From NCBI RefSeq assembly GCF_020149915.1, contig NZ_CP083760.1:2914001-2978000 (forward strand): 64,000 bases of DNA, in the 5' to 3' direction. Of this stretch, positions 9,554 through 24,474 are shown piece after piece. The translations under genes and the position numbers were made by a program. Numbering within the stretch: position 1 is the stretch's first letter; every line of letters begins with the position of its first letter. Origin of the DNA: Candidatus Sulfidibacterium hydrothermale. Lineage in GTDB: Bacteria; Bacteroidota; Bacteroidia; Bacteroidales; F082. Under the pieces are notes generated by a model that did not search any database, was not told the origin of the DNA, and saw only the letters and a program-made list of their open reading frames with translations.

Positions 9554-10621
9554 CTATTTTTTCCGGATATAATCAGCAATCCAGTCGCCTACTTCAGAAG
9601 TGGAACGCGGGTTGTCACGGGTTAGATCTTCGGTAACATAATTTTCTTCCATCGACTGCATTACGGCCTCACGAATCAAAGCCGCTTCTTCATTCAATTT
9701 AAAGGCATATTCAAACATCATGGCCGCAGAAAGAATGGTCCCCAACGGGTTGGCAATATTTTTGCCCTTGGCCTGCGGATACGATCCGTGAATCGGTTCA
9801 AAAACCGACGTCAGTTTTCCAATAGAAGCCGATGGCAAAAGGCCAAGTGAACCGGTAATCACGCTGGCTTCATCCGTAAGGATATCGCCAAACATATTTT
9901 CGGTGACCATCACATCAAATTTGCCCGGCCATTGTATAATTTGCATAGCGGCATTGTCCACAAACATAAAATCAACGGTCAATTCAGGATAGTCTTTGAC
10001 CACTTCTCCGGCCACCTCACGCCACAACCTTGAGGTTGCCAATACATTGGCTTTATCCACTACCGTCAACCGTTTGCTCCGCTGCATGGCGTATTCGCAA
10101 CCCAATTTTACAATTCGTTCAATTTCATAGCGATGATAAACCGAAGAATCGTACGCTGTATTTCCGTCTTCAGAACGTCCCTGAGGTTTTCCGAAATAGA
10201 TGCCGCCGGTCAGTTCGCGGAGTACCACAAAATCCACATTTTCCACCAAATCACGCCGCAAAGGCGATTTATCCAGCAACGAACGGAAAGTGGTTACGGG
10301 ACGAACATTGGCATAAAGCCCCAATTTCTTCCGCATGGCCAGGAGACCTTGTTCCGGACGTACTTTAGCTTTTGGATCGTTATCATATTTCGGATCGCCA
10401 ATGGCACCAAAGAGCACCGCATCCGAACTTTTACACAACTCAAAAGTTTCGTCAGGAAAAGGATTTCCCACCGCATCAATAGCGGTAGCTCCTACCAATC
10501 CTTCTTCGAATACCAGTTCATGATGATATTTTTCGCCAACGGCTTTACATACTTTTATTCCCTGTTCTACAATTTCAGGACCTATACCGTCGCCGGCCAA
10601 AACAGCAATTTTCATTTTCAT
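9554..10621 (-). CDS. leuB: 3-isopropylmalate dehydrogenase
   Basis: NAD-dependent oxidative decarboxylation of 3-isopropylmalate, the third dedicated step of leucine synthesis. The start [17 protein letters not shown], the NAD/substrate elements [36 protein letters not shown] and the C-terminal [20 protein letters not shown] are all LeuB signatures. From the ATG at 10621 the protein has 355 residues, as usual. A TTG three codons upstream (10630) would overlap the previous gene's stop as TTGA, and an ATG two codons downstream (10615) is also possible. It is the last gene of the leu operon, and a citramalate branch would use it as well. Confidence 0.96.
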
Positions 10622-10626
10622 AGATA

Positions 10627-12180
10627 TCAATTTTTATTTATTTTTTTCGGTTGAATATTTTCTGTTTTCTGTTCAATGATATTCAACATTTTTTCCGTGG
10701 CTTTGATGGCTGCTACTGTTTGGTCGCCATCCAATCCTTTTGTTGTGATGGTATGGCCATGAAATTCCCATTTGATAATGGTTTCGACCAATGCATCGGT
10801 TTTTCCGCCGGGAGGAATGGTTACCCGATAATCGGTTAAAACCGGTTTTTCCTTTCCCAGATCATCATATATTTTCCAGAGAGCTTTCATAAACGCATCG
10901 TACTGTCCGTCGCCTATTGAGCTGCTTTCCCGGACATCTTTATCCATTTGCACACGAATATGCGCCATCGGCCGCATGCCTCCCGAAAGGGTAAGGGTAT
11001 AATTTTTAATAAAAATCCGTTTATTCAGGGCTCCGTTATCCAGCACGTCGGCAATGATGTACGGTAAATCATCAGCCGTTACACTCTCTTTTCTGTCACC
11101 CAGCTCGATAATCCGTTGGGTTACCTGCCGGAGCGCATCATTATCAAGATGATACCCTAATGTTTCCAGATTTTTTTTGATACTGGCTTTCCCGGAAAGT
11201 TTTCCCAGGGCATATTTCCGGGTTCTTCCAAAACGCTCCGGAAGCAAATCATTATAGTACAAATGGTCTTTGCTGTCGCCATCGGCATGGATGCCGGAAG
11301 TCTGGGTAAACACATTTTCGCCCACAATGGGTTTGTTCACCGGAATACGAATTCCCGAGAACCGTTCTACCAGATGGCTGGCCCGGTTAATATTTTTTTC
11401 AACAATACCGGTTTTTACTTTCAGATGGTCATGTAAAACGCCCACAATACTTGACAAAGGTGCATTTCCGGCCCGCTCACCCAATCCGTTGATGGTTGTA
11501 TGAATTCCGTTAAAGCCTGCTTTAACGGAAGCCAACACATTAGCCACCGACAAATCATAATCGTTATGGGCGTGAAAATCAAAATGTAAATCCGGATAAC
11601 GGTCTCTTATTTTTTTACAAAAAGTATACGTTTGGTCTGGGTTTAAAATTCCCAGTGTATCCGGCAACATAAACCGCAGAATGTTTTCCTCTTTCAGCGC
11701 ATCAAGCATAAAATAGACATACTCGGGCGATTGTAACATTCCGTTAGACCAGTCTTCGAGATAAATATTTGCCGCAATTCCCGATTTTTTTGCCCATTGC
11801 ACTTCTCTTTTTATTTCATTGACATGTTCTTCCGGCGTTTTGCGTAATTGTTTTTCAAGATGACGTAAAGACCCTTTACTCAGCAAGTTAACCACCTTCA
11901 ATCCGGCATCCTGTATCCATTGAATCGACTGTCCGTTATCAATAAACCCCAATACCTCAACACGATCTGTTTTTCCGGTTTCGGCAGCCCACCGGGCAAT
12001 TTTACGAGCGGCATTAAATTCTCCCTCCGACACACGGGCAGAAGCAATCTCCACACGGTCTACTCCCAGCTCGGTAAGCAGAAATTTAGCCAGCTGCAAT
12101 TTTTCGCCCGGTGAAAAAGAGATTCCTTGTGTTTGTTCCCCGTCACGCAGGGTCGTATCCATAATTTCCAAACGCATCAT
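10627..12180 (-). CDS. cimA: LeuA-family acyltransferase, candidate (R)-citramalate synthase
   Basis: A second HMGL-like/LeuA-type enzyme of 517 residues in the same operon as leuA. It has the family opening [20 protein letters not shown], the metal-binding [19 protein letters not shown], and a LeuA_dimer-like C-terminal regulatory domain (about 385-505). It differs clearly from the gene at 14227-15720 and resembles the citramalate-synthase/LeuA2 branch, which condenses pyruvate with acetyl-CoA towards 2-oxobutyrate and isoleucine using LeuCD and LeuB. That specificity is inferred, and a second isopropylmalate synthase is the alternative. It starts ATGA-coupled to leuD (overlap 12177-12180). 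Confidence 0.75.
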
Positions 12181-12776
12181 TCCTGTTCTCTTTGTTGTTC
12201 AAATGCCATAATTTTCTCTTTTTTACTCAAAAGAAAATCAATATCATCATAACCATTTAAAAAGCAGAGTTTTTTATACGGATTGATTTCAAAATGTTCA
12301 CTTTCTCCGGTAGAAAGCAAAGTAATGGTTTGCTCTTCAAGCCGAATTTCCAGCTGCACTTTCGGGTCTTTTTCTATCTCAGCAAAGATCTTTTTCAGAA
12401 ATTCTTCTGAAACCTGGACGGGCAGCAAGCCATTGTTCATGGCATTATTTTTAAAGATGTCTGCAAAAAAGCTGGACACCACCACCCGAAAGCCATAATC
12501 AAAAATAGCCCACGCAGCATGTTCACGGCTGGAACCACTTCCAAAGTTTTTCCCGGCTACGAGAATCTTTCCGGAATATTTCGGGTTATTCAGCACAAAA
12601 TCTTTCACCGGTTTTCCGGCTTTATCGTAGCGCCAGTCGCGAAAAAGATTTTCGCCAAACCCTTCGCGGGATGTTGCTTTCAGAAAGCGTGCAGGAATAA
12701 TCTGATCCGTATCCACATTTTCTGCCGGCAGAGGCACACCGGTTGAAGTCAGTATATCAAATTTGTCAATAGCCAT
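12177..12776 (-). CDS. leuD: 3-isopropylmalate dehydratase small subunit
   Basis: Partner of LeuC in isomerising 2- to 3-isopropylmalate. The swivel-domain motifs are clear: [19 protein letters not shown] at residues 15-33 and [17 protein letters not shown] near 75-91. At 199 residues it has the normal length. It lies 28 bases after leuC and overlaps the next gene by 4 bases, so translation is coupled within the operon. Confidence 0.97.
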
Positions 12777-12804: not shown

Positions 12805-14205
12805 TTACATCAACGAAGCCGGATCGGTAATTTTTCCGGTTACGGCAGCCGCTGCAGCCGTCAGCGGACTGGCCAGCAATGTACGGGCTCCGGGGCCCTG
12901 GCGTCCTTCAAAATTACGGTTAGAGGTAGAAACCGAATATTTTCCGGCCGGAATTTTATCTTCGTTCATTGCCAAACATGCCGAACATCCCGGCTGACGC
13001 AATTCAAATCCGGCTTCTTTCAGAATATCAACCAAGCCTTCTTCATAAGCCTGTTTTTCCACCTGTCTTGATCCGGGAACAATCCAGGCTGTAATATTCT
13101 CGGCTTTCTTTTTGCCTTTTACCAAAGCGGCAAAAGCCCGGATATCTTCGATACGGCCATTGGTACAACTTCCCAGAAAAACATAATCCACCGGATGACC
13201 TTCTAATTTCATACCGGGTTCAAAATCCATATATTTTAACGCTTTTAAAAATGAGGGTTGTTCTGCTTCCGGTATTTCTTCCAATGCAGGGATGGTTCCG
13301 TCGATGGCGATTCCCATACCCGGATTAGTTCCGTACGTGATCATCGGACGAATATCTTCTGCCCGAAAATCTAATTCTTTGTCAAATACAGCATCCGGAT
13401 CGGTTTTCAGGTTTTTCCATTTTTCAAGAGCCCGATCCCAGTCTTTTCCTTTGGGAGCAAACTCCCGGCCTTTCACGTATTCAAAAGTTATTTCATCAGG
13501 AGCAATTAATCCTCCGCGGGCTCCCATCTCAATACTCATATTACAAATCGTCATCCGGGCTTCCATACTCAGACTGCGAATAGCACTTCCGGCATATTCT
13601 ACAAAATAACCGGTAGCTCCGCTGGCCGAGATCTGCGAAATAATATAAAGGATAATGTCTTTTGCCGTAACCGCTTTCCCCAACGTCCCTTCAATATTTA
13701 TCCGCATTTTTTTGGGTTTGGGCTGCAAAACACACTGACTGGCAAAAACCATCTCCACTTCGCTGGTACCAATCCCAAAAGCAATACTTCCGAAAGCACC
13801 GTGCGTGGAAGTGTGGCTATCTCCACAAACAATGGTCATGCCGGGCTGGGTAAATCCCAGTTCAGCTCCGATAACATGAACAATGCCGTTATACGGATGT
13901 CCGAGCCCGTAAAGTTCCACGCCAAATTCTTTGCAGTTCTTTTCCAACGTTTGTACCTGAATGCGAGAGAGTTCTTCGCGAATGGGTTTATCCTGATTTT
14001 TGGTAGGAATGTTATGGTCAGCCGTGGCCAAGGTACGCTCGGGACGAAATAAAGGAATTCCCCGCTGACGCAATCCGCTAAAAGCCTGCGGACTGGTTAC
14101 TTCATGAATATAATGACGGTCGATATACAGCACATCCGGTCCGTCCGGTACCGAATCAACCACATGGCTGTCCCAGATCTTATCAAATAATGTTTTTGGT
14201 TTCAC
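12805..14205 (-). CDS. leuC: 3-isopropylmalate dehydratase large subunit
   Basis: Aconitase-superfamily [4Fe-4S] enzyme of leucine synthesis. Visible signatures are [37 protein letters not shown] with the first cluster cysteine, and [19 protein letters not shown] with the other two. At 466 residues it matches LeuC. It lies 21 bases after leuA and is transcribed with it. The Fe-S cluster makes it a natural client of the SUF genes just upstream on the same strand. Confidence 0.97.
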
Positions 14206-14226: not shown

Positions 14227-15720
14227 TTAAATAATTTTTGAAATAGCATCTACAAAAGCTTCTACTGCGCCGGTAATAATATCGGTACTGGCCGAAAAAC
14301 CATAGTAAAGTGTTCCACGATTTTCAATTTGCACATGCACTTTACCCAAATCGTCACTACCACGGGTAATGGCCTGAATTAAAAACTCTTCGAGATGCAC
14401 CTTGCGTTTAATGATTTGCTTGACTGCCGTAAAAGCAGCATCAATAGGACCGTTTCCTGAAGCGGTAGCCGAATGGATCTCGTCATTGATTTTCAGCTGG
14501 ACTGTAGCCATCGGAACCGCCGATTTACCACACACCACCTGCAAAAGCTCCAGATGAATTTTGTGGTCTTTACGGGTTGCTTTCCCGATTAGTGCCCGTA
14601 AATCATCATCTTTGATGTCTTTTTTCTTATCTGCCAAAGCCAGAAAACGATCATAAATCTTATCCAGTTCTTTGCGGGCAAAGCTGTAACCGAGAATTTT
14701 CAAACGGTGTTTTAGTGCAGCACGGCCACTCCGGGCGGTCAGCTCGATACTCGACTCTTTGATCCCCACATCTTTAGGATTAATAATCTCATAGTTTTCC
14801 CGGTTTTTCAACACGCCATCCTGGTGAATTCCAGACGAATGAGCAAAAGCATTACGTCCTACAATGGCTTTGTTGGGTTGTACTGGCATGTTCATGAGCG
14901 ACGAAACCAAACGGCTGGTTTTATAAATCTGTTTGGTATTGATATCTGTATGCAAAGGCAGATCTTTATGACTTTTCAGAATCATTACCACCTCTTCGAG
15001 CGACGTATTTCCGGCCCGTTCTCCAATACCGTTAATGGTAACTTCCACCTGCCGGGCTCCATTCAAAACGCCTTCGATGGTATTGGCGGTTGCCATCCCC
15101 AAATCGTTATGACAATGCGTAGAGATTACCGCTTTGTGCACATTTGAAACATGCTCCATCAGGTAACGGATTTTTTCGCCAAATTCATGAGGAAGACAAT
15201 AACCGGTAGTATCCGGAATATTTACCACCGTAGCACCGGCAGCAATCACGGCTTCCACCACTTTGGCAAGATAAGCATTGTCGCTCCGTCCGGCATCTTC
15301 AGCGTAAAACTCCACATCTTCCACAAACTTCTTGGCATATTTCACCGCAGCCACTGCCCTTTCCAGAATTTTATCCGGGGTAGAATTCAGCTTGTATTTA
15401 ATGTGGTACGGAGACGTTCCGATACCGGTATGGATTCTTTTTCGTTTGGCATACTGCAACGCTTCTGCCGCTACTTCAATATCTTTTTCAATGGCACGGG
15501 TAAGTCCGCAAATTACCGGTTTGGAAACCGCTTTAGAGATTTCGACCACCGACTGGAAATCACCGGGGCTGGAAATAGGAAATCCGGCTTCAATGACATC
15601 TACCCCCAAAGATTCGAGAGCTTTGGCTACTTCAATTTTTTCCACGGTGTTCAGCTGACAACCGGGTACTTGTTCGCCATCACGAAGTGTGGTGTCAAAA
15701 ACAATAATTTTGTCGCTCAT
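14227..15720 (-). CDS. leuA: 2-isopropylmalate synthase
   Basis: Condenses acetyl-CoA with 2-oxoisovalerate, the committed and feedback-controlled step of leucine synthesis. The TIM barrel carries [34 protein letters not shown] and [17 protein letters not shown]. The C-terminal regulatory LeuA_dimer domain spans about residues 370-495. At 497 residues the length is typical. It is the first structural gene of the operon. The 180 bases before it contain an attenuator with leader peptide, so expression should respond to charged branched-chain tRNAs. Confidence 0.97.
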
Positions 15721-15764: not shown

Positions 15765-15800
15765 TAAAAAAAACTTCCCGTCAATTTATGGCGGGAAGTT
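15765..15800 (-). terminator. leu attenuator terminator hairpin
   Basis: On the minus strand AACTTCCCG (15800-15792) pairs perfectly with CGGGAAGTT (15780-15772) across an 11-base loop, followed by a run of T. It lies about 45 bases before the leuA ATG (15720), so termination here would switch off the operon. The left arm is shared with a competing upstream pairing (15835-15823 with 15804-15792). Confidence 0.85.
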
Positions 15801-15886
15801 TGTATTTTATCTGAGCAACATTTACAAAACTCCCGTCAACACCTATCAATGATAAGTATCGAAAGAATTATCCACCAAATGTTGCT
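15801..15886 (-). promoter_or_regulatory. leu attenuator: mutually exclusive pairing segments
   Basis: Three segments can be read in the minus-strand RNA. Segment 1 (15886-15877, AGCAACATTT) lies inside the leader peptide codons and is perfectly complementary to AAATGTTGCT (15823-15814). Segment 2 (15835-15823, CGGGAGTTTTGTA), starting just after the leader stop codon (15838-15836), pairs 12 of 13 positions, one of them G-U, with segment 3 (15804-15792), the left arm of the terminator. So 1:2 leaves the terminator free, while 2:3 destroys it. This is the classic amino-acid attenuator layout. Pairings were found by eye and no folding energy was computed. Confidence 0.75.
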
Positions 15887-15904
15887 GCGACTGTCCATAA
15901 TCAT
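15836..15904 (-). CDS. leuL: leu operon leader peptide (Ile/Leu-rich)
   Basis: A 22-codon frame from ATG 15904 to TGA 15836. An internal ATG at 15898 would give 20 residues. Its core reads IWWIILSILIID, and the peptide has seven isoleucine and two leucine codons in 22, far above chance. The stop codon directly precedes the antiterminator segment, so a ribosome that reaches the end would mask it and allow termination, while a ribosome stalled at Ile/Leu codons would leave it free. The predicted transcription start (about 15903-15905) lies at or next to the ATG, so the leader may be translated from a leaderless or nearly leaderless mRNA. Confidence 0.7.
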   Translation of the reverse strand: MIMDSRSNIWWIILSILIIDRC

Positions 15905-15909
15905 GGGGA

Positions 15910-15939
15910 CAAATGTAAAAGTTTTTTGAAACTGACAAA
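15910..15939 (-). promoter_or_regulatory. Promoter of the leu operon
   Basis: On the minus strand TTTG (15939-15936), an 18-base spacer and TACATTTG (15917-15910) form one of the best -33/-7 matches in the window. Transcription would begin at or next to the leader-peptide ATG. Confidence 0.75.
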
Positions 15940-15995: not shown

Positions 15996-16886
15996 TCAAC
16001 CAAATAGCGATGTGCTCAAATATTTCTCTCCACGGTCGGGAAAAATCACCACAATGTTTCCTTTTTCTGCTTTTTTGGCTGTTTCTATAGCAGCCACCAT
16101 AGCTGCCCCACTGCTCATGCCGACAAAGATGCTTTCTTTCCGAATAATTTCACGGGCCATTTCATAAGCTTCTTCCGTTTCAATCATTACCGTCTCATCA
16201 ATTTTTGACGGATCGTAAATCGAGGGTACCAGGGCTTCTTCCATGTTTTTCAGTCCCTGGATATAATGCCCTTTGACCGGATGAGCACAAACAATTTTTA
16301 TTTTCGGATTGTTTTCTTTCAATGCTTTACCTACTCCCATAATGGTTCCTGATGTTCCAATGGCCGAAACCAGATAATCCACCTCTCCATTGGTTTGCTG
16401 CCAGATTTCTTCTCCTGTGGTTTTGTAATGGGCCAGTTTATTGAAATGATTGCTAAACTGATCGGGCATAAAATATTTATCCGGAAAAGCAGCGGCCAGT
16501 TCCCGGGCTTTCTTTATGGCCCCATCGGTTCCTTCAGCAGCATCTACCAGGGTAAGTTTTGCTCCAAAAGCCTGGATAATTTTACGGCGTTCCACGGAAA
16601 CCTGATCGTTCATCACGATCTCCACATCATATCCTTTGATATTTCCGATCATGGCTAAACCGATTCCCGTATTTCCGGAAGTCGCTTCAATAATGGTTTT
16701 GCCTTTGGTTAACAGTCCTTCGGCTTCGGCCTGTTGAATCATTTTCAGGGCAATCCGGTCTTTGATGCTTCCCGTAGGATTAAAACCTTCAAGCTTGGCA
16801 AAAATATTCACCTTCGGATTGGGATTCAAATGATTGATTTTCACCATAGGTGTATTTCCTATGGTCTGTAAAATATTTTGATACAT
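15996..16886 (-). CDS. cysM: Cysteine synthase (CysM type)
   Basis: PLP enzyme making cysteine from an activated serine and sulfide. The PLP lysine is Lys42 in PTGSIKDR, the phosphate-binding TSGNTG is at 69-74, SAIGTSGTIMGVG follows further on, and the end DRGEKYLSTSLFG is very close to CysM-type enzymes. At 296 residues its length also suits CysM rather than the slightly longer CysK. It follows sufT by about 30 bases at the end of the suf cluster, so it would supply cysteine to the desulfurase SufS. The substrate (O-acetylserine or another) cannot be told from sequence. Confidence 0.93.
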   Translation of the reverse strand: MYQNILQTIGNTPMVKINHLNPNPKVNIFAKLEGFNPTGSIKDRIALKMIQQAEAEGLLTKGKTIIEATSGNTGIGLAMIGNIKGYDVEIVMNDQVSVERRKIIQAFGAKLTLVDAAEGTDGAIKKARELAAAFPDKYFMPDQFSNHFNKLAHYKTTGEEIWQQTNGEVDYLVSAIGTSGTIMGVGKALKENNPKIKIVCAHPVKGHYIQGLKNMEEALVPSIYDPSKIDETVMIETEEAYEMAREIIRKESIFVGMSSGAAMVAAIETAKKAEKGNIVVIFPDRGEKYLSTSLFG

Positions 16887-24403: not shown

Positions 24404-24474
24404 TGTCCGATGGTGTAATGGCAGCACTGCAGATTTTGGTTCTGCCTGTCCAGGTTCGAATCCTGGTCGGACAA
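24404..24474 (+). tRNA. tRNA-Gln (anticodon TTG)
   Basis: A complete 71-base cloverleaf. Acceptor arms are TGTCCGA (24404-24410) and TCGGACA (24467-24473). The anticodon stem GCAGA/TCTGC encloses the loop TTTTGGT with anticodon TTG at 24436-24438, and the T arm is CCAGGTTCGAATCCTGG. Discriminator A is at 24474. CCA is not encoded. A terminator follows before rimP, so the tRNA is its own transcript. Confidence 0.96.

Follow-up and report, generated by a model that had tools for sequence, protein, structure and literature searches.

The region upstream of leuA in Candidatus Sulfidibacterium hydrothermale very probably acts as a ribosome-mediated transcription attenuator of leuA-leuC-leuD-cimA-leuB that responds to charged tRNA-Ile and charged tRNA-Leu, as judged from sequence comparison. 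The comparison supports a conserved open reading frame (ORF), codon choice, pairings, and spacing, from which we infer ribosome stalling, readthrough, and the identity of the effector amino acids. The leader lies on the minus strand of the window, the 64,000-nucleotide stretch of DNA analysed here, and its upstream neighbor is a cysteine-synthase gene (15996-16886).

Leader architecture and operon context

The leader region is composed of the following elements.

15936..15939, minus strand: TTTG, a −33-type promoter element (from the sequence; PMC7366714 gives the consensus as TTTG / TAnnTTTG)
15910..15917, minus strand: TACATTTG, the −7 element (TAnnTTTG) of the Bacteroidota primary sigma factor (from the sequence)
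15836..15904, minus strand: leader ORF MIMDSRSNIWWIILSILIIDRC plus stop, 22 sense codons (translation; kept in congeners; codon choice and placement across relatives)
15877..15886, minus strand: outer part of strand 1, AGCAACATTT, of the 1:2 hairpin (10/10 pairs with 15823-15814; compensatory change in L086)
15851..15869, minus strand: inner part of strand 1, AATTCTTTCGATACTTATC, within the Ile/Leu codons, whose pairing with 15847-15828 masks strand 2 (minimum free energy (MFE) fold; RNAalifold on six species)
15823..15835, minus strand: strand 2, CGGGAGTTTTGTA, the antiterminator 5′ strand immediately past the leader stop (12/13 pairs with strand 3; 2:3 pairing in relatives)
15814..15823, minus strand: AAATGTTGCT, partner of outer strand 1 (pairing count)
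15792..15804, minus strand: strand 3, TACAAACTTCCCG, common to antiterminator and terminator (folding and pairing; relatives)
15771..15801, minus strand: intrinsic terminator hairpin, strands 3:4 (MFE and pairing; 10 consensus pairs invariant in six species)
15766..15773, minus strand: run of eight T (from the sequence)

The promoter proposed in a first-pass annotation of this DNA is borne out, and its layout is of the Bacteroidota type: TTTG at 15939-15936, 18 nt, TACATTTG at 15917-15910, 5 nt, and then the ATG. The same TACATTTG was found in 9/9 congeners with leuA. A sigma-70 scan of the window did not have the leader promoter among its matches, as expected for a promoter of the Bacteroidota type. 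Translating the sequence confirmed the 22-codon Ile/Leu-rich leader described earlier, which opens with ATG ATT ATG GAC, includes seven Ile and two Leu codons, and stops at TGA (15838-15836). Tryptophan sensing through the WW of this leader was considered and dropped; WW is absent in L085 and L087, and L083 has one W.

The pairing previously designated 1:2 (15886-15877 with 15823-15814) is exact, with 10/10 Watson–Crick pairs, but in the modeled fold it forms no more than the base of a long hairpin, and strand 2 is masked by that hairpin’s inner helix. In the full-length MFE structure this inner helix joins 15869-15851 to 15847-15828, with C15835 bulged, and masks 15834-15828, the GGGAGTT of strand 2; the outer helix and the antiterminator strand share a single base, 15823. 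The 2:3 antiterminator just past the leader stop stood as described, with 15835-15823 and 15804-15792 forming 11 Watson–Crick pairs and one G:U pair around one mismatch (12/13). The terminator and its T-run are likewise present, although the 9 bp first assigned to the hairpin understated it: 15801-15771 forms 10 pairs plus two inner pairs in the MFE structure and runs into the eight T, which end 45 nt before leuA. A simple pattern scan reported the terminator inverted repeat in the plus-strand reading only and gave no minus-strand terminator, since the loop, lengthened by an inner C.A mismatch, exceeds what the scan’s rule allows. The stretch 15907-15764 has an MFE of −50.2 kcal/mol (z = −6.1), with none of 200 shuffles equally stable. 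When the 350-nt region upstream of leuA was dinucleotide-shuffled 400 times, the combination of promoter, Ile/Leu-rich ORF, and terminator never arose.

Downstream of the terminator lie five genes that appear to be transcribed as one operon.

14227..15720, minus strand: leuA, 2-isopropylmalate synthase, the operon’s first gene (NCBIfam NF002086 748 bits, TIGR00973 688 bits, both above cut-off)
12805..14205, minus strand: leuC (TIGR00170 above cut-off)
12177..12776, minus strand: leuD (TIGR00171 above cut-off)
10627..12180, minus strand: probable cimA, (R)-citramalate synthase (NF042433 680 bits, near full length, below the cut-off of 950)
9554..10630, minus strand: leuB (TIGR00169 above cut-off)

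The earlier suggestion that the second LeuA-like enzyme is a candidate citramalate synthase is supported, since NF042433 (CimA) is the best model by far (680.2 bits, though below its cut-off of 950) and the best isopropylmalate synthase model reaches 348; the match to TIGR00977 is 171.8 bits against a cut-off of 450. A CimA homologue is encoded downstream of leuA in at least 37 of 65 loci, a count in which the sequence of many other loci, including the window’s own (L001), ends early. If the second enzyme is CimA, citramalate would be an isoleucine precursor and leuCDB would serve both amino acids, matching the mixed codons of the leader. The best threonine-deaminase match in the genome scores 281 bits, below its cut-off of 379.

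Conservation and codon placement across leuA loci

Conservation in related Bacteroidota, which the first-pass annotation had proposed examining, is evident within the genus: leuA is present in 9 of the 11 congeneric genomes searched, and a leader ORF and terminator lie upstream of it in 9/9. Stop codon and terminator are 34 nt apart in seven of these nine congeners and 36 and 13 nt apart in the remaining two. Ile and Leu together make up at least 30% of eight of the nine leaders and 18% of that of L088, where regulation may be drifting. The L088 leader has four Phe, three Ile, and one Leu, and its first ATG is gone.

RNAalifold on six species, the window included, recovered both the 1:2 hairpin and the terminator. 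Support from covariation, which had also been suggested as a check on the two pairings, is modest in this alignment, with only 2 of the 34 consensus pairs changed on both sides, 9 with a change on one side that preserves pairing in one sequence or more, and no variation among the 10 terminator pairs. Some broken cells of the outer helix in the six-species alignment reflect a one-base alignment shift, and L086 carries a compensatory C-G to U-A change in this helix. The antiterminator score of the window is higher than those of all nine congeners.

A wider survey covered 105 leuA loci of at least 60% identity (80 named and 25 others), with Prevotella, Bacteroides, Parabacteroides, Tannerella, Dysgonomonas, Labilibaculum, Ancylomarina, and Prolixibacteraceae among the titles of the named loci. 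A few of the loci are uninformative or possible repeats: L110, one of the 25, is a mere 3′ fragment that lacks true upstream sequence, and L102 and L065 share their leader peptide and terminator. A fixed rule required a terminator of −9 kcal/mol or better, TAnnTTTG, and an ATG ORF of 12–40 codons with at least 30% Ile plus Leu and its end no more than 75 nt from the terminator. Terminators were located with a folding-based finder, which replaced a stricter one that missed clear cases. The rule was passed by 47/105 real upstream regions and by 3/2100 dinucleotide shuffles; 58/105 regions fail it, some of them with leuA seemingly close behind another gene. Among 27 more distant leuA regions (L112-L138; 17 of the same class and 10 of the same phylum), no such leader was seen by eye in the 330 nt upstream of leuA, and in several of these regions leuA seemingly lies inside a longer operon. 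The LeuA matches at L117-L131 (same class or phylum) span approximately residues 1–380 of 497, with open frames of ~400 codons, and from their sequences these proteins seem to be without the C-terminal regulatory region.

Codon and spacing tests used a hand list of 63 leaders, whose 39% Ile plus Leu is biased upward because the list was partly picked by Ile/Leu content. Loci L054, L060, L067, L072, L099, and L102 were excluded despite having an ORF, and for L004 a different ORF was used. Synonymous codon choice in these leaders is strongly skewed. CTA accounts for 28% of Leu codons (74/264), compared with 15% expected from base composition and 2% in the 63 leuA genes, and TTA for 9% (25/264) versus an expected 30%; ATT makes up 78% of Ile codons (237/302) versus 43% in leuA genes. 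Picking leaders by Ile/Leu content does not account for a preference among synonyms.

Placement of the Ile/Leu codons was examined relative to strand 2, itself placed by its complementarity to strand 3 within −36 to +24 nt of the stop-codon end, in the 54/63 loci with a pairing score of at least 18. Ile/Leu codons occupy 4/80 positions 0–5 nt upstream of strand 2 and 7/106 at 6–11 nt (together 11/186), then 66/108 at 12–17 nt and 93/108 at 18–23 nt (together 159/216), in counts that are not independent, as the loci are related. Measured from the end of the Ile/Leu cluster, strand 2 is 15.5 nt away (sd 4.6) and the stop codon 24.8 nt (sd 13.1), and the cluster-to-stop and strand-2-to-stop distances are tightly correlated (rho = 0.93). 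A ribosome footprint extends roughly 12 nt downstream of the first base of the A-site codon, and the codons are placed as stalling would require, with ~12 nt of covered mRNA past that base.

The edge is clearly blunter when strand 3 is replaced by that of another locus, the longest shared run of identical bases being at most six (2140 swaps), with Ile/Leu fractions of 0.24, 0.31, 0.55, and 0.68 and an sd of 11.3 nt. A residual edge persists in this control because 63% of 1811 swapped placements lie no more than 6 nt from the placement with the own partner; the 670 displaced placements have no edge (0.53, 0.62, 0.50, 0.46). The sharper edge with the own partner argues that Ile/Leu codons are positioned relative to the true antiterminator strand. 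The overlap of 62/63 strand 2s with −24..+18 around the stop was discarded as evidence, since strand 2 was sought only from −36 to +24.

Own 2:3 pairings scored 21.8 versus 16.0 for swapped ones across the 63 loci, with 303/2140 swapped strand 3s pairing equally well or better, figures that come from a loop-including test chosen after two weaker versions rather than from a pre-set one. Those versions, a gapped-duplex test with little of the terminator loop and a 5′-arm-only test, gave weak results, with 212/1197 divergent swaps and 625/2368 swaps, respectively, as good as the own partner. Against shuffled strand 2, p ≤ 0.01 was obtained in 15/63 loci and p ≤ 0.05 in 37/63.

The best strand 2 ends ahead of the stop codon, within sense codons, in 28/63 loci. 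Loci of Bacteroides/Prevotella type, e.g., L024, L025, L055, and L081, have strand 2 inside sense codons, so there a translating ribosome would traverse strand 2 rather than park on it. The C-terminal GSD/GSE of Bacteroides and Prevotella leaders was considered as a sign of peptide function and rejected; it is strand 2 (GGAAGTGA) read as codons.

Alternative folds, mechanism, and competing explanations

In the mechanism we propose, scarcity of Ile- or Leu-tRNA would stall the ribosome on codons 9–19, where it would occupy strand 1 just short of strand 2. Strand 2 could then pair with strand 3, no terminator would form, and leuA would be transcribed. With both tRNAs charged, the ribosome would reach the stop at 15838-15836 and cover strand 2, so that strands 3:4 would pair and transcription would end. 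In an untranslated leader, strand 2 is probably tied up in the 1:2 hairpin (15886-15851 with 15847-15814), and this would also favor termination.

Both of the alternative folds expected from the earlier reading exist. RNAs shortened from the 5′ side and ending at 15786 fold as the antiterminator (e.g., −14.3 kcal/mol from 15846), a crude proxy for a stalled ribosome in which 15786 precedes the terminator’s 3′ arm; when that arm is included, the terminator is in the MFE of every 5′ truncation tried. The RNA 15904->15786 also adopts the antiterminator (−34.0 kcal/mol) instead of the masking helix, so folding does not establish default termination without translation. The 1:2 protector pairing is thus seen in the full-length MFE and the six-species consensus, but is lost in the RNA ending at 15786.

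The first-pass annotation had favored sensing of isoleucine, or of both amino acids, and the second part of that statement has fared better: both Ile and Leu are most likely sensed, to judge from the leader sequences. An attenuator answering a single amino acid, whether isoleucine or leucine, with the other codons present by chance or through AT-rich composition, would fit the 7:2 ratio of Ile to Leu in the window, but seems unlikely to us. Ile (21.0% of residues) and Leu (18.4%) are about equally frequent in the 63 leaders (a list partly picked by Ile/Leu content), which favors sensing of both over isoleucine alone, and 62/63 have at least two Ile and at least one Leu. The skew of Leu codons to CTA, rare in leuA genes, would also make little sense if Leu were not read, and if the second enzyme is CimA, the products of the operon would be shared by both pathways. 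Single-amino-acid versions may nevertheless exist elsewhere. Nine loci with at least 1.4 kb of downstream sequence compared have no leuC there; two of them, L020 and L067, have clear leaders, with one Ile each and four or eight Leu, and these few loci are suggestive of Leu-only leaders accompanying leuA without leuC. The leuA genes at L020, L067, and L072 are without leuC in the downstream DNA examined (~1 kb for L072) and, in contrast to leuA of the operon type, have leaders that are rich in Leu and include just one Ile.

Explanations in which the leader peptide plays no sensing role are far less probable. A translation-independent switch (a T-box, a small-molecule riboswitch, or an RNA-binding protein) with an incidental ORF would have a terminator and an alternative pairing just as well, and a weak PyrR-site match (21.3 bits versus a gathering score of 54, E = 0.82) could be read in its favor. 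This PyrR match is the best in the leader region, where no Rfam leader, T-box, or riboswitch family reaches its gathering threshold; the sole Rfam match in the window that does is a tRNA (24404-24474). Moreover, the Ile/Leu-rich ORF recurs in 47/105 leuA regions, with biased codons and a set placement relative to strand 2, and we hold such a switch to be very improbable. Slightly more improbable still is an unregulated arrangement, in which a constitutive terminator follows a short ORF for a functional hydrophobic peptide. The leader peptides are indeed short and hydrophobic, but their sequences vary widely except for Ile and Leu, and an unregulated terminator 45 nt before a biosynthetic gene would be implausible. 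The reading that remains far ahead is a ribosome-mediated attenuator responding to both charged tRNAs.

Known attenuators, translation start, and other leaders of the genome

The enterobacterial leu, ilv, his, and trp operons are controlled by the ribosome-mediated attenuators leuL, ilvL, hisL, and trpL. The leuA leader resembles these in its short ORF rich in the end-product amino acid, its alternative 1:2, 2:3, and 3:4 pairings, its intrinsic terminator, and, across related loci, its use of the rare Leu codon CTA. It differs from them in having a Bacteroidota promoter, a 5′ UTR that is probably very short or missing, and mixed Ile and Leu codons before leuA, and in the related loci where the best strand 2 falls inside sense codons. 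The mechanism itself is classical; the leuA leader is very probably an instance of it, without a matching Rfam family, and the leader set could seed one.

A literature search on attenuation and leader peptides in Bacteroidota returned no leuA-leader paper among the matches listed, judged by title and start of abstract. A survey by Lopatovskaya et al. (2010), reportedly a comparative study of attenuation to go by its title, may already list Bacteroidetes cases. The Bacteroidota record in the literature found so far consists of hints. In Flavobacterium psychrophilum, of the same phylum, “strong clues” of leader-peptide attenuation upstream of amino-acid biosynthesis operons came from structured 5′ regions, in described cases that name no leuA leader and include no codon or spacing test (PMC9723704). 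Some small ORFs in long 5′ UTRs of Bacteroides thetaiotaomicron were called “reminiscent of leader peptides” mediating attenuation; the example given is a hypothetical gene rather than leuA, presented there without a test of mechanism (PMC7366714). Closer in content is the ilvD attenuator of Staphylococcus aureus, which has a Leu-rich peptide with three Ile codons, a terminator and antiterminator, and repression-relieving mutations (PMC5794164). It shares with the present leader a Leu/Ile peptide and terminator–antiterminator arrangement before a branched-chain operon; unlike it, the S. aureus element belongs to Firmicutes, acts jointly with CodY, and precedes ilvD rather than leuA (PMC5794164).

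The leuA leaders offer a comparative, testable case for ribosome-mediated attenuation of leu operons in Bacteroidota, and probably of ilv, his, and trp operons in this genome. They predict a joint Ile/Leu response, explained by the common leuCDB pathway. If the mechanism holds, the leading ribosome keeps up with RNA polymerase in Bacteroidota. More tentatively, with confidence a little short of even, we suggest a widespread Bacteroidales family of dual Ile/Leu leuA attenuators, with the ribosome tightly trailing RNA polymerase, in which the leader in this genus, like that of trp, would be read from a leaderless or near-leaderless 5′ end and feed a classical attenuator.

Translation in Bacteroidota mostly starts without Shine–Dalgarno pairing. 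The ATG lies 4–5 nt past TTTG in the window and five congeners; of the 49 other loci that have a promoter-like word fewer than 80 nt upstream, 36 have a spacing of 18–30 nt. L086 retains the first ATG only and L088 the second only. In B. thetaiotaomicron, ~3.7% of 5′ UTRs are shorter than 10 nt (PMC7366714). Near-leaderless initiation in the genus is plausible from these spacings.

Three further leaders were found in the same genome. Upstream of an ilvD-ilvB-ilvN-ilvC-like operon, in which ilvC was assigned by family and the other names from order and size, the ilvD leader MKRVFSNIHIIIVLLLVVISP (HIIIVLLLVVI) is accompanied by a terminator and a CCGGAGA/TCTCCGG pairing (L145:9262-9410, minus strand; G000:C1:2247261-2247449). 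DNA matches to it occur in 5/11 congeners, with similar peptide composition in those five. A genome pattern search for more Ile-repeat leaders gave three matches versus one in the reversed control. The hisG leader MRTTRRHHHHLHFHPLR (HHHH), also with a terminator, lies upstream of hisG at G000:C1:2705034-2705573 (L149, reverse complement of 1453-1576) and, from its sequence, is a probable histidine attenuator. The trpE leader MNKMNLNNNWWWLLFVRN (WWW) and its terminator are at L150:1430-1600, minus strand (G000:C1:850429-850599). DNA matches to the trp leader region were found in 6/11 congeners, two of them short and weak, with similar peptide composition in four. The trpE leaders of the genus have a similarly short start spacing, with the ATG 4–7 nt past TACATTTG, and WWW is kept in the six copies read.
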